NCBI RefSeq assembly: GCF_010550675.1
Contig: NZ_JAAGOA010000006.1
Coordinates: forward strand, 1-64,000
Direction: 5' to 3'
Source: Phytoactinopolyspora halotolerans
Lineage (GTDB): Bacteria; Actinomycetota; Actinomycetes; Jiangellales; Jiangellaceae
DNA: 64,000 bases
Below, piece after piece: positions 15,979 to 55,072 of the stretch. The notes under the pieces are model-generated. The model was not told the origin of the DNA. It searched no databases and saw only the letters and a list, made by a program, of their open reading frames with translations. Every line of letters begins with the position of its first letter. Within the stretch, counting starts at the first letter, position 1. The position numbers were made by a program, and so were the translations under genes.

Positions 15979-16010
15979 CCCGGACCGGCCATCGGGGGCC
16001 GGGCACAGCC

Positions 16011-16120
16011 GAGGGCATGTTGCGCAGCTACCGAAGGCATGTTGCGCAGCTACCGAGGGCATGTTGCGCAGCTACCGAGGGCATGTTGCGCACCTGCCGA
16101 GGGCATGTTGCGCGCCTGCC
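16011..16120. repeat. Five tandem 22-bp repeats
   Basis: Units start at 16011, 16033, 16055, 16077 and 16099. The core GGCATGTTGCGC is identical in all five. The first three differ at only one base; the last two carry CACCTGCC and CGCCTGCC endings. Each unit contains TGCGCA or a variant. The period is not a multiple of three and no reading frame is sustained as a plausible protein, so this is non-coding DNA. It ends 54 bp before the 3' end of the GntR gene. Confidence 0.9.
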
Positions 16121-16173
16121 GAGTGCTCTCGGTCGAGGCGCGAGCGCAGTAGCTGGGTGCAGTAGCGAGGGAC

Positions 16174-31343: not shown

Positions 31344-33083
31344 ATGAGTGGGTCGTCCCAGAACGGCGAAACCCGGACCAACAATCAGCGCCATCTCTCA
31401 AGTTACGTACCCCGCCTCGGGCCGGGCGGCGTGTCGTTGTGGGTGTTCTACCCATCGATCATCCTGATCGTCGCGGTCTGCGTGCTGACGATGGCCTTTC
31501 CCGATCGGGCGGGCGAGTTCTTGAGCACCATCCAGGAGAACGTCGTCGGCACATTCGGCTGGTACTACGTGGTGCTCGTCATCCTGTTCATGATCTTCGC
31601 GATCTGGATGGGGGTCAGCCGGTTCGGTGACATCACGCTCGGCAAGGACGGTGAGCCGGCCCAATTCAGCCTGGTGGCGTGGTTCGCGATGCTGTTCGCC
31701 GCCGGGATGGGCATCGGCCTCGTCTTCTTCGGCGTAGCAGAGCCGCTGATGCACTACGACTCGCCCCGCCCGGGCGAAGGCGCCGGCCCGGCGGCGGACG
31801 AGAACGGCTTCGGCGCGGAGGGCATCGGCTCCGAGGGCGCCGATCTGGCCCAGTACGCCATGGCTCAGACCTTCATCCACTGGGGAATCCACGCGTGGGC
31901 GATCTACGTGGTGGTCGGGCTGGCGCTGGCGTATGCGATCCACCGCAAGGGCCGGCCCGTGTCGATCCGGTGGGCGCTGGAACCGTTGCTGGGTGCGGAG
32001 CGTGTCCGGGGCTGGCTCGGTGATGTCATCGACACCGCCGCCATCATCGGGACGCTGTTCGGCGTGGCCACGTCGCTCGGGCTCGGCGTCGAGCAGATCG
32101 GCGCGGGCCTGGAGTCACTCGGCGCCATCGATGACGCGAACACCGGCGTATCCGTGCTGCTGATCGCCGTGATCACCTCCGTCGCGGTGGTCTCCGTCGT
32201 GACCGGCGTGGAGCGCGGCATCAAATGGCTGTCCAACGTGAACCTCGGACTGGCCGGTGCCTTCCTGATCGCCATGCTGCTGCTCGGGCCGACGCTCTTC
32301 TTGGTGCGCGAACTGGTCCAGTCGATCGGTGTGTACATCCAGAACCTGGTCCCGCTGACCTTCGATACGAGTGCATACGCCGGTGCGGAGGGCGAAGCGT
32401 GGCAGGGGTCGTGGACGACGTTCTACTGGGGCTGGTGGATCTCGTGGGCGCCGTTCGTCGGCGTCTTCATCGCCCGCATCTCCAAGGGCCGCACCATCCG
32501 GGAGTTCGTCGCCGGTGTGCTGATCGTGCCGACGCTGGTGACTTTCCTGTGGTTCTCGGTGCTGGGCGGCAGCGCGTTGCATCGGCAGCTCTACGGCGAG
32601 GGCGGCCTGGTCAACCGGGACTCGCTGGATCCATTCGAGCGGGTGATCCCGGAGAACGCGTTGTTCGAGCTGCTGTCGGACGTGCGGTTCGGCACAATCT
32701 TGAGCGGGGTCGCCATCATCATGGTGACCATCTTCTTCGTCACCTCATCGGATTCCGGCTCGCTGGTGGTCGACATGCTGGCCTCCGGGGGTGAGCAGGA
32801 ACCGCCGACCTGGAGCCGGGTGATGTTCGCCGTGCTGGAGGGCGCCGTCGCTGCCGGGCTGTTGCTGGCCGGAGGCCTGCAGGCGCTGCGTACCGGCGCC
32901 ATTCTCACCGCCTTGCCGTTCAGTCTGGTGATGATCGCGATGATGTGGGCCACGTACCGGTCACTGCGCGCAGAGCACCACGTGCGACGCGCCACGCAGG
33001 AACGAGAGAGTCGGCAAGAGCTCGAACAGAACGTCCGGCGCAGCGTGACCGACGAGCTCAGCGAGATGACGGATAGACGATAG
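31344..33083 (+). CDS. BCCT-family osmolyte transporter 1
   Basis: Betaine/choline/carnitine transporter of 579 residues with about 12 membrane helices. The Gly-rich sodium-site stretch [16 protein letters not shown] and the aromatic-box motif [20 protein letters not shown] are intact, as is the [14 protein letters not shown] loop. It imports compatible solutes such as glycine betaine with sodium. The start at 31344 uses TGGAGG within a hairpin; the ATG at 31317 is an in-frame alternative. It is a close paralogue of the next gene. Confidence 0.94.
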   Translation: MSGSSQNGETRTNNQRHLSSYVPRLGPGGVSLWVFYPSIILIVAVCVLTMAFPDRAGEFLSTIQENVVGTFGWYYVVLVILFMIFAIWMGVSRFGDITLGKDGEPAQFSLVAWFAMLFAAGMGIGLVFFGVAEPLMHYDSPRPGEGAGPAADENGFGAEGIGSEGADLAQYAMAQTFIHWGIHAWAIYVVVGLALAYAIHRKGRPVSIRWALEPLLGAERVRGWLGDVIDTAAIIGTLFGVATSLGLGVEQIGAGLESLGAIDDANTGVSVLLIAVITSVAVVSVVTGVERGIKWLSNVNLGLAGAFLIAMLLLGPTLFLVRELVQSIGVYIQNLVPLTFDTSAYAGAEGEAWQGSWTTFYWGWWISWAPFVGVFIARISKGRTIREFVAGVLIVPTLVTFLWFSVLGGSALHRQLYGEGGLVNRDSLDPFERVIPENALFELLSDVRFGTILSGVAIIMVTIFFVTSSDSGSLVVDMLASGGEQEPPTWSRVMFAVLEGAVAAGLLLAGGLQALRTGAILTALPFSLVMIAMMWATYRSLRAEHHVRRATQERESRQELEQNVRRSVTDELSEMTDRR

Positions 33084-33108
33084 CCGGCTTCACTGGTAGT
33101 CGCCGGCT
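33082..33108 (+). terminator. Hairpin after BCCT-1
   Basis: AGCCGGC (33082-33088) pairs with GCCGGCT (33102-33108) across a 13-nt loop, starting within the stop codon of BCCT-1. The stem is short and no T run follows, so it is a weak terminator candidate. Confidence 0.35.
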
Positions 33109-33122
33109 TGTCGAGCGGCGCC

Positions 33123-33155
33123 GATATGGCGCGGATATGGCGCTGATATGGTGTC
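33123..33155. repeat. Three 11-bp direct repeats upstream of BCCT-2
   Basis: GATATGGCGCG (33123-33133), GATATGGCGCT (33134-33144) and GATATGGTGTC (33145-33155) sit head to tail. The 11-bp period is about one DNA turn, so proteins bound to the three copies would lie on one face. They lie 130 bp before the BCCT-2 start, a plausible operator position. Confidence 0.6.
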
Positions 33156-33284
33156 ACCGCTCCGGCTACCGCGGGCGCGCGACGGCGCATGGCCGACACG
33201 CCACTGGACTCGTGAGCTTGACGATTCACGTTTCTCCCGTAACGGTGGTACGGCACCTGTGGGCGACGTACGGAAGGTGAAGCC

Positions 33285-35192
33285 ATGAGTTCTCCGTCAG
33301 AGACACAGCGGTCGCGCCGCTCACCCGAAATATCGCAATATGAGCCCAAAATCGCCCGCGGTGGCGTCACGCCGGGGGTTTTCTATCCGTCACTCATCGT
33401 CATCGGTCTCGCCGTCATCGTGGCGATGATCTGGCCGGACGACGTCGGCGAGGCGCTGGGCACCATCCAGGAGAACATCGTCGGCGGGTTCGGCTGGTAC
33501 TACGTGCTCGTCGTCGCCATCTTCGTGGTCTTCTCGATCTGGATGGGTGTGAGCCGGTTCGGTGACATCAAGCTCGGCAAGGACGACGATCCGCCGGACT
33601 TCAGCCTGGTGGCCTGGTTCGCCATGCTGTTTGCCGCGGGCATGGGCATCGGCCTCGTGTTCTGGGGTGCGGCCGAGCCGCTGCGGCACTACGACTCGCC
33701 GAAGCCGGGCACCGACGGCGGCGGTGCCATCGGCGGCGCCGACGCGGCGGCCGGAGACGTCGGCAAAGGGCTGGAGGGCATCGGGCCCGACGGGGCCGAC
33801 CTGGCCGAGCAGGCCATGGCCCAGACGTTCCTGCACTGGGGCTTCCACGCGTGGGGCATCTACGTGGTGGTCGGGCTGGCGCTGGCGTATGCGATCCACC
33901 GCAAGGGCCGGCCGGTGTCGATCCGGTGGGCGCTGGAGCCGCTGCTGGGTGCGGAGCGGGTCAAGGGATGGGTCGGTGATGTCATCGACACCGTCGCCGT
34001 CGTAGGAACGGTCTTCGGCGTCGCGACGTCGCTCGGATTCGGCGTCAACCAGATCGCGGCCGGCCTGGTCTCGATGGGGCTGATCGACAGCGCGACCGAC
34101 GGCGTCGCGATCACACTGATCATCGTCATCACCGCCATCGCCACGGTGTCGGTCGTCTCCGGAGTCGGCAAGGGCATCAAGTGGCTGTCCAACGGCAACC
34201 TCGCGCTGGCGGCCATCTTCCTCGTGGTGCTGCTGATCGTCGGCCCGTCGCTGTTCTTCCTCCGCGACTTCGTGCAGTCCCTCGGTACATACATGCAGAA
34301 CGTGCTGCCGATGACGTTCGACACCAGTACCTACACCGAGGACGCCGGCCAGGCATGGCAGGGGTCGTGGACGACGTTCTACTGGGGCTGGTGGATCTCC
34401 TGGGCACCGTTCGTCGGCGTCTTCATCGCCCGCATCTCCAAGGGCCGGACCATCCGGGAGTTCGTCGCCGGTGTGCTGATCGTGCCGACCACCGTCACGT
34501 TCCTGTGGTTCGCCGTGCTGGGCGGCAGCTCGCTGTACCGGCATCTGTTCGGCGCGGGCGGGCTGGTCGACCGGGTCGACGCGAACGGCGACCAGATCGA
34601 CGAGGCGAGCGAACGCGTCGTCGCGGAGAACGTGCTCTTCCAGCTCGTCGAAGATCTCCCGCTCGGCGGCATCCTCACCGTCGTCGTGGTGATCCTGGTC
34701 GCCGTGTTCTTCATCACGTCATCGGACTCCGGCTCGTTGGTCGTCGACATGCTGGCGTCCGGCGGAAATCCGGAGCCGCCGATGTGGAGCCGGGTCCTGT
34801 TCTGTGCGTTGGAGGGCGCGGTCGCCGCAGCGCTGCTGCTGGCCGGTGGCCTCGGTGCGCTGCAGACCGGTGCGGTGATCATGGCGTTGCCGTTCAGCGT
34901 GATCATGCTGGCCATGTGTCTGTCCACCTACCGCTCGCTGAAGGCGGAGTACCGGGTGCTGCAGGCGGCCGAGCGGCGGGCCCGCCGGGAGGAGATGCAG
35001 CGGCACGTCAGCACGCACGTCACCGGTCAGCTGACGGAGAACTTCGACGACCACTTCGGCGAGCAGGTCGACTCGAGGATCGACAACGCGCTGGTGGAGA
35101 TCGGCGTCGGTGGCGAGGGCAACGGGAGGCGCGCGTCGTCGTCCGAGATTCCGGACGACGACGACCGGCGACCCACCCCGGAGCCGACCTGA
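33285..35192 (+). CDS. BCCT-family osmolyte transporter 2
   Basis: BCCT carrier of 635 residues with the same core as its neighbour ([16 protein letters not shown] and [20 protein letters not shown]). It differs by an insert near residue 140 ([16 protein letters not shown]) and by a longer cytosolic tail of about 100 residues, first basic and helical ([15 protein letters not shown]), then acidic (EIPDDDD). In BetP-type carriers such tails sense osmotic stress, so this copy may be the regulated one. ATG at 33285. Confidence 0.94.
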
Positions 35193-39052: not shown

Positions 39053-39973
39053 ATGGGCCGGTATGTGCTGCGGCGGGTCCTGCACATGGTGCCGGTGTTG
39101 CTCGGCACCACCTTCGCCATCTACGCGATGATGTGGTGGCTTCCGGCCGATCCGCTCGCCGGACGGTGCGGCGGGAGAGTGTGTCCGGACAGTTATGTCG
39201 CGCGGATGACCGAGGCGTATCACCTCGATGATCCGTTGCCGGTCCAGTACGCGAGGTACATGCTCGACCTGGTGACCGGTGACTTCGGCACGACCTTCTC
39301 CGGTGCTCCGGTCGCCGACGAGCTCCTGCAACGGTTCCCGGTGACGCTGCAACTGGCCGGGTTGGCCGTCGTCGTCGAGATCGTCATCGGCATCATCGCC
39401 GGGGTACTGGCCGGACGGCGGCCGGGTGGCTTCGTCGACAACCTGGTGCTGGTGAGCACGCTGGCGGTGCTGGCCGTGCCGGTGTTCGTGCTGGCGCTGA
39501 CGGCACAGTCGGTGTTCGGCGTGCAGCTCGGCTGGTTCCCGGTCACGTCCGACGGCGGGTTCGGGTCGTTGATCCTGCCGGCCGTCGTGCTGGGCGCGGT
39601 GCCGTTGGCATTCGTCGCCCGGATGATGCGCGCGACCCTGATCGAGAATCTCACCGCCGACCACGTCCGCACCGCGCTCGCGAAGGGGGCCTCGGAACGC
39701 CGGGCCGTGCTGGTGCACGGGGTGCGCAACTCCCTGATCCCGGTGGCGACGCTGGCGGCGGCGGACTTCGGAGCGCTGGTGGCGGGCTCCGTCGTCGTGG
39801 AGACGGTGTTCAATATCGACGGCGTCGGCGGTCTGCTGGTGCGCAGCGTGCGCGACGGTGAGATCGGGATCGTGACGACCGCGGTGACCCTGCTGGTCTT
39901 GCTCTTCCTTGCGGTGAACCTGATGGCCGACATGCTCTATCCGATTCTCGACCCGAGGATCCGTCATGCGTAG
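39053..39973 (+). CDS. Peptide-type ABC permease (DppB/OppB family)
   Basis: Permease of 306 residues, the normal DppB length: YVLRRVLHMVPVLLGTTFAIY at the N-terminus, DDPLPVQYARYMLDLVTGDFG in the periplasmic loop, the coupling loop ENLTADHVRTALAKGASERR, and the terminal YPILDPRIRHA. It overlaps the next permease by 8 bp (39966-39973). Confidence 0.93.
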   Translation: MGRYVLRRVLHMVPVLLGTTFAIYAMMWWLPADPLAGRCGGRVCPDSYVARMTEAYHLDDPLPVQYARYMLDLVTGDFGTTFSGAPVADELLQRFPVTLQLAGLAVVVEIVIGIIAGVLAGRRPGGFVDNLVLVSTLAVLAVPVFVLALTAQSVFGVQLGWFPVTSDGGFGSLILPAVVLGAVPLAFVARMMRATLIENLTADHVRTALAKGASERRAVLVHGVRNSLIPVATLAAADFGALVAGSVVVETVFNIDGVGGLLVRSVRDGEIGIVTTAVTLLVLLFLAVNLMADMLYPILDPRIRHA

Positions 39974-41012
39974 CCCGGAATCGATGCGCTCGCGGCGCTC
40001 CGGCGCCGGTGGCGGAGAGGCGCTGCAGGTACCGGCGCGGGGCCGGGCCGGGCTGCGGATCCGGCGCGGGCTGTGGGGCCCGGGCGGGACGGGCGACCGG
40101 GGCGGGGCAGGTGACCGGGGCGGGGCAGGTGACCGGGGCGGGGCGCGGGTGTGGATGCGGCTGCGCAGACGCCCGGCGTTCTGGATCGGGTGCGGGTTGC
40201 TCGTCCTGCTGGTCCTGGTCGCGATCGTTCCGGGACTGTTCACCGGGCGGGATCCGGCCTACTGTGACCTCGCACTCTCCCGGCGCGGTCCCGGGGACGA
40301 CGCCGTCTTCGGGTACAACCTGCAGGGGTGCGACGTCTATGCGCGCACGATCTACGGAGCGCGTGCCTCTGTCCTGGTCGGCGTCTTCGCCACGGCGGCC
40401 GTCGTCGTCATCGGCGGCCTGATCGGAACGGCGGCCGGCTACGCAGGAGGCCGGCTCGACTCCGTGCTCTCCCGGTTGACCGACGTGTTCTTCGGGATCC
40501 CGCTGCTGCTCGGCGCCCTGGTGGCGTTGGTGGCCTTTCCGTCCGACGAGTCCACCCCGGGCTGGCAGACGACCGCCAAGGTGGTGCTGGCGCTGGGCAT
40601 ACTCGGGTGGACCACGGTGGCCCGGATCGCGCGTGCGGCGGCGATCCAGGTGCGGCACATCGACTATGTGGTGGTGGCGCAGGCTATGGGCGGCGGCCAC
40701 CTGCAGGTGATCCGCCGGCATGTGCTGCCCAGCGTTCTTCCGCCCGTGCTGGCGTGGTCGACGATGGCCGTCGGCGGGTTCATCGCCGTGGAGGCGACGC
40801 TGTCCTTCATCGGCATCGGGCTGCAGCCGCCGGTGATCTCGTGGGGTGTGGAGATCAGCGAGGCTCAGGCGTACCTGCGGCAGTCACCGCATATGTTGAT
40901 CGTTCCGAGCGCGGCGCTGTCCCTCACGGTGTTCGCGTTCATGACCCTCGGCGAAACTCTCCGCGCCGCGCTCGACCCCCGCACGCCCCACCTAAATGAT
41001 CATGTGAAGTAG
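39966..41012 (+). CDS. Peptide-type ABC permease (DppC/OppC family), unusual termini
   Basis: Permease of 348 residues. The first 60 are basic and Gly-rich with three DRGGAG-like repeats; helices start near LRRRPAFWIGCGLLVLLVLV. The coupling loop is HIDYVVVAQAMGGGHLQVI. The core ends at ALDPRTPH, and the last residues LNDHVK plus the stop are encoded by the left arm of the 99-bp inverted-repeat element at 40991, so the original C-terminus may have been altered. No ATPase gene follows. Confidence 0.9.
   Translation: MRSPESMRSRRSGAGGGEALQVPARGRAGLRIRRGLWGPGGTGDRGGAGDRGGAGDRGGARVWMRLRRRPAFWIGCGLLVLLVLVAIVPGLFTGRDPAYCDLALSRRGPGDDAVFGYNLQGCDVYARTIYGARASVLVGVFATAAVVVIGGLIGTAAGYAGGRLDSVLSRLTDVFFGIPLLLGALVALVAFPSDESTPGWQTTAKVVLALGILGWTTVARIARAAAIQVRHIDYVVVAQAMGGGHLQVIRRHVLPSVLPPVLAWSTMAVGGFIAVEATLSFIGIGLQPPVISWGVEISEAQAYLRQSPHMLIVPSAALSLTVFAFMTLGETLRAALDPRTPHLNDHVK
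40095..40148. repeat. Three in-frame 18-bp repeats in the permease N-terminus
   Basis: Units at 40095, 40113 and 40131 share GACCGGGGCGGGGC. The first two are identical over 18 bp and the third differs at its end. They encode Asp-Arg-Gly-Gly-Ala-Gly in the cytoplasmic N-terminal extension. The unit length is a multiple of three, so copy number could vary without breaking the frame. Confidence 0.8.
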
Positions 41013-41089
41013 GTTTTCTCGTGCTTCAACAGGTCTGCAGACATGGTAGTGCTGGAGAAAACCCACTTCACATGATCATTTGGAGGTGG
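40991..41089. repeat. 99-bp inverted-repeat element, copy 1
   Basis: Begins CCTAAATGATCATGTGAAGT and ends with the near-complementary arm ACTTCACATGATCATTT. The loop holds the internal palindrome GTCTGCAGAC. By eye it matches copy 2 (53749-53847) at 89 of 99 positions without gaps. The left arm contains the stop codon of the upstream permease. There is no open frame of its own and no flanking gene for a transposase, so it resembles a REP/MITE-type intergenic element. Confidence 0.88.
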
Positions 41090-41091
41090 AA

Positions 41092-41138
41092 CGTGGCGTG
41101 CTGAAGAAAAGGGGGGCTTTAAGCTTCAGCACGCCACG
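41092..41138. terminator. Perfect 15-bp hairpin with a G/C-run loop
   Basis: CGTGGCGTGCTGAAG (41092-41106) pairs with 41124-41138. The 17-nt loop contains AAAAGGGGGG. It lies directly after the 99-bp element in the convergent gap between the permease and the GAF regulator, so it can end transcription from either side. Confidence 0.65.
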
Positions 41139-41251: not shown

Positions 41252-42673
41252 TCACGGCCGGCCCCGCAGCGAGCTGTCCAGCGCATCGAGCGCGGCGCCG
41301 ACCTCTTCGCGTCGCCGCGAACCGTACGGGAGACGGGCGAGGCAGGCCTGCCACAGCTCGGCGTCGTCCTGCCCGGCCGGCGACCGGGCGAAGCGCAGCA
41401 GGACGTCCGCACGCGCGTGCCGGAGCAGCGACGTACGCAGCCAGCTGTGCAACTGCCGCCGGTAGGTGATCACGCCGGGTGCGTCCGACCGAGGAAGCAC
41501 CGGCGCCCGGTACAGGTCGACGGCCCGCCGGTGGGCGCCGCGCTGCAGGCAGTCGGCCACCTCGGCCGCGTCGGTGCGCAGCGCCACCCGCAACCGGTAT
41601 GGGCGTCCCGGGGTCAGCAGCTGTGGCCACGCCTTGCGCAGCCGGGACAACTCGGCGCGGACGGTGACCTCGGCCGCGTCGTGCTCGTACATCAGCTCGG
41701 CGAGTTCCGCGGCGGTGAGGCCGTCGGGGTTGAGCGTCAGCAGCATCAGGAGCTCGGTGTGCCTCAGACTGAGCTCGGCGACACGGCCGGAGAAGGTGAG
41801 CTCGCCGCGATCGCGACCCAGGACGCGGAGCGAGGCCGCATCGGGAGGGGCGAGCTGGGTGGGCACATGCAGACGGAGCTCGGCTTCGACGGCGGCCACC
41901 GCGGAGCGGATGAGCAGCGCGGATTGCGGCGACGCCACGTCGTCGCGGCCGGCGATGGCGAGTGTGCCGTGGACACGTCCGCTGTGCGGGTCACGGATCG
42001 GCGCGGCTGTACAGCTCCACGGGTGGACCGCTTTGGCGAAGTGCTCGCTGCCGAAGATCTGGACCAGCTCGCCGACGACCAGCGCGGTGCCGACCGCGTT
42101 GGTGCCGGCGGCGCTCTCGCTCCATACCGCCCCATGGGCGATGTGGATCCGCTCCGCGCCTCGGAGTAGCGACTGATCACCGTCGGCCCACAGCAGCCTG
42201 GCCTCGGCATCGGTGACCGCCACGATCACTCCGGCTTCCGATGCGTCACGGACGAGCAGGTCCTGCACGACCGGCATGACATGGCGCAGGGGATTGGCCT
42301 CCCGGGCCTCAGTGAGGGCGTCGTCGGTGAGCACGATCGGCGGACCGGCCGCATCGGGGTTCACCTCGAGCCGGTGCGAGCGTTCCCACGACTCGAGGAC
42401 GACGGGCCGGACGGATTCGGGCGGCTTCCCTAGATTCCCCCGGCCGACGAACCGCTCATGCGCCTCTGCTGTGTGCCGCCATCGCTGCGCCGCGTCGATG
42501 CCGAGCGGCAAGGCAAGCGATGGCGTGGAGCGCCCCCACGCTCGGTCCAGAAGATCCCCCCGTTCCGTGTCCCCGGCGCCCAGAATCTTGTGCCGTGTCC
42601 GCGGTCGTTTCGCTCCAGTGTAGACGGTGCGTGCGGATCCGCTGTGGTGCGCGGGTGCCGCTGTCGGTGTCAC
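41252..42673 (-). CDS. GAF-domain transcriptional regulator
   Basis: Regulator of up to 473 residues. The central part has an AcoR-like sensor region (VRPVVLESWERSHRL, then a GAF domain with GAVWSESAAGTNAVGTAL and HPWSCTAAPIRDP). The C-terminal half has a winged-helix segment with LSLRHTELLMLLTLNPDGLT and a helical tail. Such proteins often control alcohol or aldehyde metabolism genes. The start is uncertain: ATG 42673 lies only 17 bp from the mshB start, and an in-frame TTG at 42511 would drop 54 residues of low similarity. Confidence 0.8.
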   Translation of the reverse strand: MTPTAAPAHHSGSARTVYTGAKRPRTRHKILGAGDTERGDLLDRAWGRSTPSLALPLGIDAAQRWRHTAEAHERFVGRGNLGKPPESVRPVVLESWERSHRLEVNPDAAGPPIVLTDDALTEAREANPLRHVMPVVQDLLVRDASEAGVIVAVTDAEARLLWADGDQSLLRGAERIHIAHGAVWSESAAGTNAVGTALVVGELVQIFGSEHFAKAVHPWSCTAAPIRDPHSGRVHGTLAIAGRDDVASPQSALLIRSAVAAVEAELRLHVPTQLAPPDAASLRVLGRDRGELTFSGRVAELSLRHTELLMLLTLNPDGLTAAELAELMYEHDAAEVTVRAELSRLRKAWPQLLTPGRPYRLRVALRTDAAEVADCLQRGAHRRAVDLYRAPVLPRSDAPGVITYRRQLHSWLRTSLLRHARADVLLRFARSPAGQDDAELWQACLARLPYGSRRREEVGAALDALDSSLRGRP

Positions 42674-46523: not shown

Positions 46524-46576
46524 GTGATCATCGATGGTGAGACCGGTCATCACCGGTTCAACGGTCGATGATCATG
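46524..46576. terminator. Convergent hairpin between the VanW and GNAT genes
   Basis: GATCATCGA (46526-46534) pairs with TCGATGATC (46565-46573). A nested GGTGA..TCACC stem lies inside. The right arm includes the stop codon of the leftward GNAT gene, so the element serves both genes. It shares CCCGTGATCATCG with the hairpin after pepA at 62370. Confidence 0.6.
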
Positions 46577-53026: not shown

Positions 53027-53731
53027 ATGCTCGACAGACTCAGCGCTCGGATGAAGCGAGGCACCGTGGGAGCGTTGGGAGCAGCCGCATTGCTGGCGGC
53101 TCCTTTCATGGCCGGACAGGCCAGTCCGGACAACGGCACCGCGCACAGCGGCACCGCGCCCAGCGGCCCGCTCGCGGAGGAGATGGCCGAACTTCTGGAG
53201 CTTCAGCCGGGTGGTGTCCAGATATCCGACAATGCGTTGGCCTGGGACGACGGCGCAACCGTGGTGGTGTGGCCCAGCCCCGGGGAAACCGTGGCGCCGG
53301 CTGGGCTCGGGGAGAACGTGCGGGCCGATGTGGTCGAGGAACTCGGTTCCGAGACGCTGCAGGAGCAGTCGGAGACGGGGAACGCCGCAGCGGTGGAGGG
53401 TGATGCGGCCGGCGCCGCGTCGTCGGATCTTCAGCCGGCCGGGAGTTACACGTCATGCCCGTACTCCTACTACTGCTTCTACACCGGATCGAACTACGAC
53501 GGCACCCGGTACCAGTTCTCCAGCACGTGCTCGTCGTACGCGTCCAACTGGGGATTCAACAACCAGACCACGTCGTGGGTGAACCGTGGCGGCAGCGGGA
53601 AGGCCATCTACGCCTTCGACTACCAGGGCAGCTCGCGGCTGTGGTACGAGGCGGTGGGTACTCAGGATTCGTACGTGGGCTCCAGCGACAACAACCGGAT
53701 GAGCTACTGGACCTGCACGTACACCGGCTGA
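53027..53731 (+). CDS. Secreted peptidase inhibitor-like protein (family I36)
   Basis: Exported protein of 234 residues. ATG at 53027 follows GAGGAG by 7 nt and gives a signal peptide (GALGAAALLAAPFMAGQA). An acidic propeptide-like region precedes a Cys- and Tyr-rich domain (SCPYSYYCFYTGSNYDG, TCSSYASNWGFNN and NNRMSYWTCTYTG) of the crystallin-like I36 inhibitor type. The upstream ATG at 53003 has poor spacing. Followed closely by the 99-bp repeat element. Confidence 0.85.
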   Translation: MLDRLSARMKRGTVGALGAAALLAAPFMAGQASPDNGTAHSGTAPSGPLAEEMAELLELQPGGVQISDNALAWDDGATVVVWPSPGETVAPAGLGENVRADVVEELGSETLQEQSETGNAAAVEGDAAGAASSDLQPAGSYTSCPYSYYCFYTGSNYDGTRYQFSSTCSSYASNWGFNNQTTSWVNRGGSGKAIYAFDYQGSSRLWYEAVGTQDSYVGSSDNNRMSYWTCTYTG

Positions 53732-53748: not shown

Positions 53749-53847
53749 CCTAAATGATCATGTGAAGTGGGGTTTCTCGCGCCTCAACAGGTCTGCAGAC
53801 ATGGTAGGGCACGAGAAAACCCACTTCACATGATCATTTAGGAGTGG
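53749..53847. repeat. 99-bp inverted-repeat element, copy 2
   Basis: Left arm 53749-53779 and right arm 53812-53842 are complementary at 30 of 31 positions. The 32-nt loop carries AACAGGTCTGCAGACATGG. It lies entirely in the convergent gap between the I36 gene and the CU044_5270-type gene, 8 bp from the latter's stop, and would form a strong hairpin in RNA from either strand. Same length as copy 1, with no indels. Confidence 0.9.
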
Positions 53848-53854
53848 TGGTGGG

Positions 53855-55072
53855 TCAGAGGAAGAGGGTGTAGTCGATGACCGCCGGAGCGGCGGCGTCG
53901 AACTGCTCGACGTCGTCCAGCAGCACTTGCTCGTAGCCGAGGAGTCGACCGTCGTCGCGGTCGATGAGCAGGACGTGGCGAATCGGCCAGCCGCTCCCGT
54001 CCGAATCTGTGGCGAACGCCTGGACCGTGCGACCGGCGCGGTCCGTCGTCTCGCCGAGGGACTCGACGTCCGGTGCGTCGGCGAGCAGGCGGAGGATCGC
54101 GGCCCGGACAGCGGAGTCCGGAACCTGCTCGAGGTGGACATCGCGGACGGCGCGGAACAACTCGGCGCTGTCGTCGGCGAGCGCGGGTCGCTCGGTCGCG
54201 AGCACATCGCGCAGCTCCGCGGGCTGCGTCGGCAGGTCGTCCGGGTACATCGTGGCCCAGGCGCCGGCCTCGAGCGTCTCGTCGCGCAGCACCTCGCCGG
54301 CGGGGCCGGGACGGCCATCCTCGGTCCATGCCCGCCGGTATGCCTCGCTCGGGAACTGTGGTTCGCCGCCCACCTCGCGCACGGAGACGGTGCCGTTCGC
54401 GTGCCGGATCAGATCGCGCCGAATCGGGATGACCGCCGTGCTGACGTTGCTGCTCGTCGCCGCGTCACCGGTTGACGCGGTGGCGCCGTCATCCGCCCGG
54501 CCTTCTGGGGCCGCATCCGGTGCGGCACCTTCCGGCGGCGCGTCGCCCTCGGCTGCCTTCGGGCCGCTCTCGGTGATCTCGAGCGACCACCGTTCGGTAC
54601 GGATCGCGAGGCCACCGCCGCTTGCCGTCGCCCCGTCGAGACCCTCTGAGTCCGCGCCCACGTCCGAGTCCGCACCCGGGTCCGAGTCCGCGCCCGCGTC
54701 CAGCTCCGCGTCCGTGGCGACGCGCGTAGCCAGGGCGGTGAGCTCGGCCGAAGCCGGGTCGCCTGCGGACGTCTCGTGTCCGATCAGCGCCGGTGTGGCA
54801 GCGTGCGCGACGCCCATGTCGGAGCGGAACACGTCTGCGGCGACCAATGAGACCGCTACCAGCACCCCGGCTGTGGCCGTCGCCAGCGCCATTCGGGCCA
54901 GCTGTATCCGCGGCCGCCACGCCGGCTTGCGGCGCTTTGATCCGGCCGATGCCTCCAACGTCTCCCGCGCGATCGACTCGAGCAGGTCGCGGATGGCGCG
55001 TTCGCGGTCCTCGGGGAGCTCACCGGAAGGAGGACGCTCGACGCTGCCGAACTGAAGTGTCGGTGAGTTCAT
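53855..55072 (-). CDS. CU044_5270-type membrane protein, partner of the sigma factor
   Basis: Protein of 405 residues with one membrane helix (about 62-82, ALATATAGVLVAVSLVAADV). The cytosolic N-terminus is about 60 residues and could bind the sigma factor. Outside are a DSDPGAD-like repeat, an Ala/Pro-rich linker and a folded C-terminal domain (PTQPAELRDVLA and VRAAILRLLADAPDV). It overlaps the sigma gene by ATGA, the layout of sigma/anti-sigma or sigma/sensor pairs. Anti-sigma activity is inferred. Confidence 0.8.
   Translation of the reverse strand: MNSPTLQFGSVERPPSGELPEDRERAIRDLLESIARETLEASAGSKRRKPAWRPRIQLARMALATATAGVLVAVSLVAADVFRSDMGVAHAATPALIGHETSAGDPASAELTALATRVATDAELDAGADSDPGADSDVGADSEGLDGATASGGGLAIRTERWSLEITESGPKAAEGDAPPEGAAPDAAPEGRADDGATASTGDAATSSNVSTAVIPIRRDLIRHANGTVSVREVGGEPQFPSEAYRRAWTEDGRPGPAGEVLRDETLEAGAWATMYPDDLPTQPAELRDVLATERPALADDSAELFRAVRDVHLEQVPDSAVRAAILRLLADAPDVESLGETTDRAGRTVQAFATDSDGSGWPIRHVLLIDRDDGRLLGYEQVLLDDVEQFDAAAPAVIDYTLFL

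Follow-up and report, generated by a model that had tools for sequence, protein, structure and literature searches.

We propose that two inverted repeats in the DNA analysed here, a window of 64,000 nucleotides from Phytoactinopolyspora halotolerans, belong to a REP-like family of dispersed and amplified hairpins located at gene ends. We think it probable that this family carries a new kind of tag and that its mobiliser is something other than a RAYT transposase. About 90 dispersed copies of the long palindrome are present in the genome from which the window comes (G000; 7.3 Mb in 65 contigs). An arm pattern with up to three mismatches matched this genome 85 times in the forward and 84 times in the reverse orientation (reversed control, 0), and a core pattern matched 88 places, or 93 when it was loosened (control, 0). 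BLAST of the same genome gave at least 97 candidates, 40 of which were scored. The preliminary description, made from the window alone, had suggested a mobile or amplified intergenic family of the REP/MITE kind and had called for a genome-wide count. That count did not stop at two copies without relatives. The suggestion is supported by the roughly 90 copies, by differences between species in the sites occupied, and by the placement at gene 3' ends with stop codons supplied by the element.

The two window copies, at 40991-41089 and 53749-53847, are as first described: they agree at 89 of 99 positions, their arms are complementary over 31 bp (30/31 in copy 2 and 27/31 in copy 1), and both have GTCTGCAGAC at the centre. 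The element proper is 94 bp long, CCTAAATG...CATTTAGG (40991..41084 and 53749..53842; the palindromes and their parts are given without strand), and the final five of the 99 bases are flank. Over these 94 bp the copies are AT-rich, with a G+C content of 0.44 for copy 1 and 0.49 for copy 2 in a window of 0.68. The + strand RNA is predicted to fold with -49.8 kcal/mol for copy 1 (z -7.3) and -63.2 kcal/mol for copy 2 (z -11.5), stabilities that none of 200 shuffles matched for either copy, and both strands of both copies give a single long hairpin (-48.8 to -63.6 kcal/mol, again matched by none of 200 shuffles). The palindrome may act as an RNA hairpin; a 94-bp copy transcribed from either neighbour would fold as a long hairpin at the 3' end of the mRNA.

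Copy 1 is entered by an ABC transporter permease gene on the + strand (39966..41012; label from the preliminary description and by eye). The reading frame ends ...HLNDHVK, followed by TAG at 41010-41012. The left arm encodes the last six residues, LNDHVK, and the stop, and the earlier claim that the element provides the stop codon of the permease is thus confirmed. The left outer box ATGATCAT (40996..41003) contains TGA on both strands and has its partner at 41072-41079; a species-specific 8-bp block, GAAGTAGG, lies in the left arm at 41006..41013. A regulator-like ORF, labelled by eye, converges from the other side (41252..42511, - strand), and copy 1 is placed between the permease and a separate hairpin, CGTGGCGTGCTGA..TCAGCACGCCACG (41092..41138). 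Copy 2 is flanked by two convergent genes, one on the + strand (53108..53731) that ends 17 bp upstream of it and one on the - strand (53855..55072). Between two other convergent genes lies a shorter relative of 52 bp (46524..46575), which has TGATCAT near both ends and is palindromic at 19 of 26 positions. Rfam at gathering scores found only 5S rRNA in the 64-kb window, and the 99-mer of copy 2 had no match in plasmid and phage collections. The window also holds other repeats: two adjacent genes at 31431-35192 with roughly 80% identity across several hundred bases (D1, D2), probably a tandem duplication, and tandem 22-bp direct repeats at 16009-16126 (D3).

The long palindrome is not confined to P. 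halotolerans. Among 22 Jiangellaceae genomes, an arm pattern neutral with respect to the 8-bp block matched five, namely G000, G001, P. endophytica (G002), P. alkaliphila (G004) and P. halophila (G005), with a control of 0 throughout. The core pattern matched 11 of the 22: 93 places in G000, 63 in G001, 64 in G004, 31 in G005 and 9 in G002, and one to six places in each of six further genomes of the family. Among the matches listed, a single one lies outside the Jiangellaceae, in Mesobacillus; it lacks a second arm, and we take it as chance. A literature search yielded, among the matches listed, no description of this palindrome family, and we claim no wider absence from print; in excerpts of the paper on the J. 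gansuensis genome (PMC5292007), CRISPR repeats are the only ones named.

A gap-free alignment of the 86-bp core from 45 distinct symmetric copies of five species, picked for good arms, shows how the element is built. The outer AATGATCATGT is invariant or nearly so; inward from it come the 8-bp block, then TTTTCTCG, and finally a core that varies round CTGCAG. The outer box itself reads A-TGA-TCA-T and is strongly conserved. AATGATCATGT is paired at both ends, and 9 of its 11 pairs are identical in all 45 copies, which had been picked for good arms. The preliminary description had proposed that a conserved loop, and not only the arms, points to recognition by a protein or a structured RNA. This is partly borne out, as the CTGCAG centre is well kept; however, its surroundings vary, and the part best conserved across species is the outer AATGATCATGT.

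Over 41 nested pairs, 89.4% of the cells in this alignment pair. The covariation score was 0.250, whereas shuffles gave 0.128 and none of 500 reached the observed value; with the partners slid, the score was at most 0.076. Two other statistics lend no or weak support: 19 pairs changed on both sides, a number reached by 18 of 500 shuffles, and there were 44 further pair types, below the shuffled mean of 48.4. All of these values include the relatedness among the copies. The two-sided changes lie mostly in the 8-bp block and the variable core. One outer arm is missing from 31 of the 149 copies, in five species, that have both neighbours called, and 17 of these one-sided copies are in G005. A larger autonomous element between two one-sided copies was considered and rejected: in the pair inspected in detail (G001, gene pair 54/55), the small gene between them is also there in G003, G004 and G005. 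Likewise, we dropped the idea that the arm retained by a one-sided copy is the one facing the 3' end of a gene: with provisional locus assignment, this held for 13 of 21 tandem cases (p 0.38).

The palindromes are strongly associated with gene 3' ends. With neighbours called by a purpose-made codon-usage gene caller, 117 symmetric long copies had both neighbours called: 53 between convergent, 57 between tandem and 7 between divergent genes. The comparison set, 850 intergenic gaps in G000 and G002 contigs, each 20 bp or longer, contained 152 convergent, 518 tandem and 180 divergent gaps (p 7e-12). Thus, 110 of the 117 are convergent or tandem. They adjoin 163 gene 3' ends at a median distance of 12 bp, and 55 of these genes have their stop within the palindrome (29 as TGA of AATGA, 20 as TAA of CCTAA and 6 later), stops in the third frame being rare (p 0.0007). 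None of 71 gene starts falls inside a long copy, and 50 of the 57 tandem copies are closer to the upstream stop. A-TGA-TCA-T is identical whichever strand is read, and a single palindrome can therefore accommodate the ends of two convergent genes. Short copies behave similarly: 53 of 55 (one at an edge and one inside a gene call were left out) comprise 25 convergent, 24 tandem and 4 divergent placements (p 7e-7), with 32 of 74 stops and 3 of 32 starts inside the element.

Such placement, together with a palindromic form maintained through sequence change and the occurrence of some sites in several species, would also be expected if the palindromes were vertically inherited bidirectional terminators or 3'-processing hairpins, selected and immobile, with a co-evolving protein that reads the boxes and the block. 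We regard this explanation as unlikely. Neither window copy is followed by a T-run, so the U-tract is absent, and neither has the GC-rich hairpin with U-tract of an intrinsic terminator. A terminator scan of the window listed five other sites and neither copy. Copy 1 need not be the terminator of the permease, since another conserved hairpin (41092-41138) follows it.

Comparison of orthologous sites speaks further against immobile terminators. Across 82 kb surrounding the two window copies, copy 2, which separates genes 46 and 47, is absent at the orthologous gene pair in all five relatives, G001-G005, which is most simply explained by gain of copy 2. Copy 1 is absent from G001-G004; in G005 a one-sided copy lies behind the same gene, and the next gene is missing. 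The hairpin at 41092-41138 is found behind the same gene in G001-G004 as well. In G002 it stands directly after the reading frame, whereas in G000 the palindrome is in between. Sixteen of 69 G000 copies examined had both flanks in 1.27 Mb of G002, the nearest relative: 4 of these sites are filled in both genomes, 11 have no listed copy in G002 (emptiness being scored by position against the arm- and core-pattern places of G002) and 1 is unreadable because of a run of N. No clear target-site duplication of the palindrome was seen in the portions inspected of the empty orthologous sites, which are too diverged to fix the junction. Further, the G000 copies are on average 86% alike although their places are unrelated, and G003, of the same genus, has 129 matches to the short class described below but no match to the long core pattern; a different search gave one weak hit of 47 bases there. 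We infer that absence in the relatives reflects gain and that the palindromes spread by transposition.

Sites without the 94-bp element sometimes carry shorter palindromes that also end in ATGATCAT. These short elements are about 50-54 bp long and share the ATGATCAT ends of the long class, but have other stems. The pattern ATGATCAT-N24..54-ATGATCAT was found in 20 of the 22 Jiangellaceae genomes, with 11-133 matches in 19 of them and a control of 0 in all 22; a few of the matches, among them the single one in G009, look like coding DNA. It was absent from G007 and G008, which are 81% and 75% complete. Across 393 genomes of the class, 37 had matches, 20 of them Jiangellaceae and 17 outside, and the control hit one genome. 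Twelve of the 17 had one match; the others had 13 (G234), 6 (G026), 5 (G065), 3 (G259) and 2 (G034), and those of G026 and G034 were palindromic on inspection. Examples from these two genomes, which represent two other actinomycete families, are ATGATCAT-ended palindromes of 52 bp (L283, G026) and 59 bp (L282, G034). Among 43 distinct elements of 48-54 bp, 41 measure 51-52 bp, and 33 carry the same five inner letters on both arms. Among these 33 there are 11 different five-letter stems; thus, the box and the length are kept and the stem differs. The long family is therefore one of several Jiangellaceae subfamilies that share the ATGATCAT ends and the palindromic form, but not the stem.

The 8-bp block inside the outer box is nearly fixed within a species, on both arms. 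Among the arms with a recognisable outer box in 151 copies, the block was GAAGT(G/A)GG in 122/134 arms of G000 (many of whose copies were retrieved with GAAGT-bearing queries), TTGGT(G/A)GG in 23/23 arms of G001, AAACCATG in 56/61 arms of G004 and TTGGTACG in 35/38 arms of G005. A block-neutral search that listed 40 G000 places found the GAAGT block in 37 and TTGGTAGG in 3. G002 is mixed, with GAAGTAGG in 7/12 arms, and this counts against a uniform block per species.

In 32 cases, two species each have a copy between the same two genes, and 31 of these copy pairs were compared (a second pairing with one G004 copy was excluded). When G000-G002 pairs were set aside, the orthologue was less similar than the nearest copy of the same genome in 25 of 25 pairs; this was so in 4 of 6 G000-G002 pairs. 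Ranked among random cross-species pairs, the orthologue had a median of 0.44 in the 25 pairs and 0.23 in the G000-G002 pairs. In the sufC-sufS spacer, five species have an element at the same place, with blocks that differ, and two g3 genomes, which we take to be Jiangella, also have a variant there. A survey of 21 of the 22 genomes (one had no sufC match) found the element in 7; it was absent from G003 and 13 others (loci L364-L384). This distribution, like the 7 divergent placements among 117, would be odd for a strong terminator.

The likeness of copies within a genome could have another source than conversion: the same gene ends may have been hit independently in each species. Such hot spots are a rival for the within-genome likeness and not for the family itself, and we consider them possible, though they would not be our first choice. 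The sufC-sufS element occurs in more than one genus, and, with a median percentile of 0.44, orthologues from the more distant species show no greater likeness than random cross-species pairs. Against hot spots, 6 of 7 examined G002 copies are at sites that are filled in G000 also, and the sufC-sufS copies of G000 and G002 share a one-sided form and core letters. Shared sites could nevertheless be hot spots rather than the result of descent. Because the sufC-sufS variant is in g3 genomes and missing from G003 and 13 others, we give repeated insertion at a favoured gene end the same weight as conversion of an old copy.

What moved the palindromes? The preliminary description had proposed a search for a REP-associated tyrosine transposase, and the answer is negative: PF01797 (Y1_Tnp, the RAYT domain) was found in none of the 22 Jiangellaceae genomes and in 5 of 14 control genomes. 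In addition, clustering of 760 flanking proteins gave no mobiliser-like cluster among the 25 largest, which were mostly transporters and orthologues. We thus see hardly any case for classical REP elements moved by RAYT. These have the same habit, with placement at 3' ends and a stop from the end of the element (excerpts of PMC3733652), but the unpaired GTAG/CGTC tag is absent here and the lengths are 94 or about 50-54 bp, not 20-40 bp.

Insertion sequences do adjoin the palindromes. Contigs break beside several copies, and at 11 contig ends the end of an ISL3-family IS abuts the outer box at an 8-bp step, CNAAATGA (L385, L387, L388, L390 and L391 in G000; L398-L403 in G004). This step is a landing site of the ISL3 element common to at least two species. 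One G004 end contributes a transposase C-terminus, which hits PF01610 (DDE_Tnp_ISL3, E 2e-8). The peptide encoded at the G000 ends is, as judged by eye, almost the same, and non-coding ends were assigned through the inverted repeat. The opposite junction was found at 15 places in 4 of 5 genomes, with AAATGA directly before the IS in all, the search pattern itself requiring AAATG. The 8-bp steps CTAAATGA, CCAAATGA and CAAAATGA account for 13 of 14 left and 10 of 11 right junctions (L387 has one extra A); left and right ends come mostly from different insertions, and the ends had been chosen for adjoining palindromes. L410 (G001) holds a complete element, roughly 0.8 kb in length and with no transposase called in it, that has the repeated step on both sides. 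A second IS lies within the palindrome core at six G004 contig ends (starts, L392-L397); its C-terminus we take to be IS30-like, and its 39 residues had no Pfam match. In two further cases the palindrome interior seems to have been exchanged: at L405 (G002), AAATGA and TCATT enclose an ISL3-like inverted repeat of 40 bp, and at L407 (G001), IS-related DNA reaches from the left end of the palindrome to CCATTTAGG of the right end.

These junctions raise the question whether the palindromes are MITEs, that is, non-autonomous relatives of the ISL3 elements that abut so many of them. This would fit the 11 abutting ends, which come from G000 and G004, and the similar left junctions of G000, G001 and G004. 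However, the IS has GGCTCT..TCCGTGGGT as its inverted repeat, which does not resemble the CCTAAATGATCATG at the end of the palindrome. Moreover, the 8 bp that are repeated (CTAAATGA and similar steps) are inside the palindrome, as if the IS had inserted into it. We consider this origin very improbable.

Our preferred reading remains that of a REP-like, amplified gene-end family with a mobiliser other than RAYT, and we propose the following model. Separate Phytoactinopolyspora lineages would have acquired new copies, placed on a stop codon or directly after it; we deduce this gain from orthologous gene pairs that lack the element. A gene may tolerate such an insertion into its final codons because A-TGA-TCA-T and the preceding CC-TAA, whose stops are used by the genes counted above, offer stops in two frames. 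Copies within a genome, the 8-bp block included, would then be kept alike through gene conversion or repeated insertion. Effects on the host are likely and may consist of protection of the mRNA 3' end or partial termination. Finally, the palindromes would probably serve as landing sites for the ISL3-family IS and another IS. A bolder version, which we put forward tentatively and hold to be doubtful as a whole, is that of a new Jiangellaceae super-family with A-TGA-TCA-T tags at both ends that let either neighbouring gene terminate its frame within the element, spread without RAYT and evolving in concert, in which the block, specific to each species on both arms of almost every copy, is the address of a species-specific factor.

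Compared with known systems, the palindromes come closest to REP elements. According to excerpts of PMC3733652, REPs measure 20-40 bp, tagged REPs are known mainly from gamma- and alphaproteobacteria, and the GTAG kind is associated with RAYT transposases; the word Actinobacteria is absent from that article. Like the GTAG/CGTC REPs, the family described here is a high-copy extragenic palindrome (93 core matches, control 0) that lies at gene 3' ends between convergent or tandem genes and may supply the stop from its end. As in REPs, there are several families per genome, and as in the CGTC kind, which these excerpts describe as without a dedicated transposase, none was found. Unlike REPs, which have an unpaired GTAG or CGTC at one end, these elements have a paired ATGATCAT at both ends; they are 94 bp long, or mostly 51-52 bp in the short class; PF01797 is found in 0 of 22 genomes; the host is an actinobacterium; and an 8-bp block varies by species. 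Since length, tag and transposase all differ, we call the family REP-like and not REP.

There is also a likeness to bacterial MITEs and other small mobile sequences such as RUP, Correia and RU, which are short, non-coding inverted repeats between genes (excerpts of PMC2229807, PMC2759123 and PMC2817692). For the palindromes, no clear target-site duplication was seen at the diverged sites that lack them, and no IS with the same ends was found: no such gene is in the 25 largest flank clusters, and the adjoining ISL3 ends differ. Lastly, REP/BIME sequences are targets of IS1397 and ISPpu10 (Tobes and Pareja, 2006, as cited in excerpts of PMC2817692), and in both systems the palindromes are landing sites; here, however, the ISL3-family IS enters the outer box at a single, exact step of 8 bp. 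Taken together, these comparisons describe a REP-like system in actinomycetes in which RAYT was not found. Its tag is a different one, it comprises several subfamilies, and related species have amplified it separately. Its species-differing 8-bp block offers a direct handle on how repeats stay alike (through conversion, through repeated insertion or through a factor that recognises them) and on the role of such hairpins at 3' ends in high-GC bacteria.
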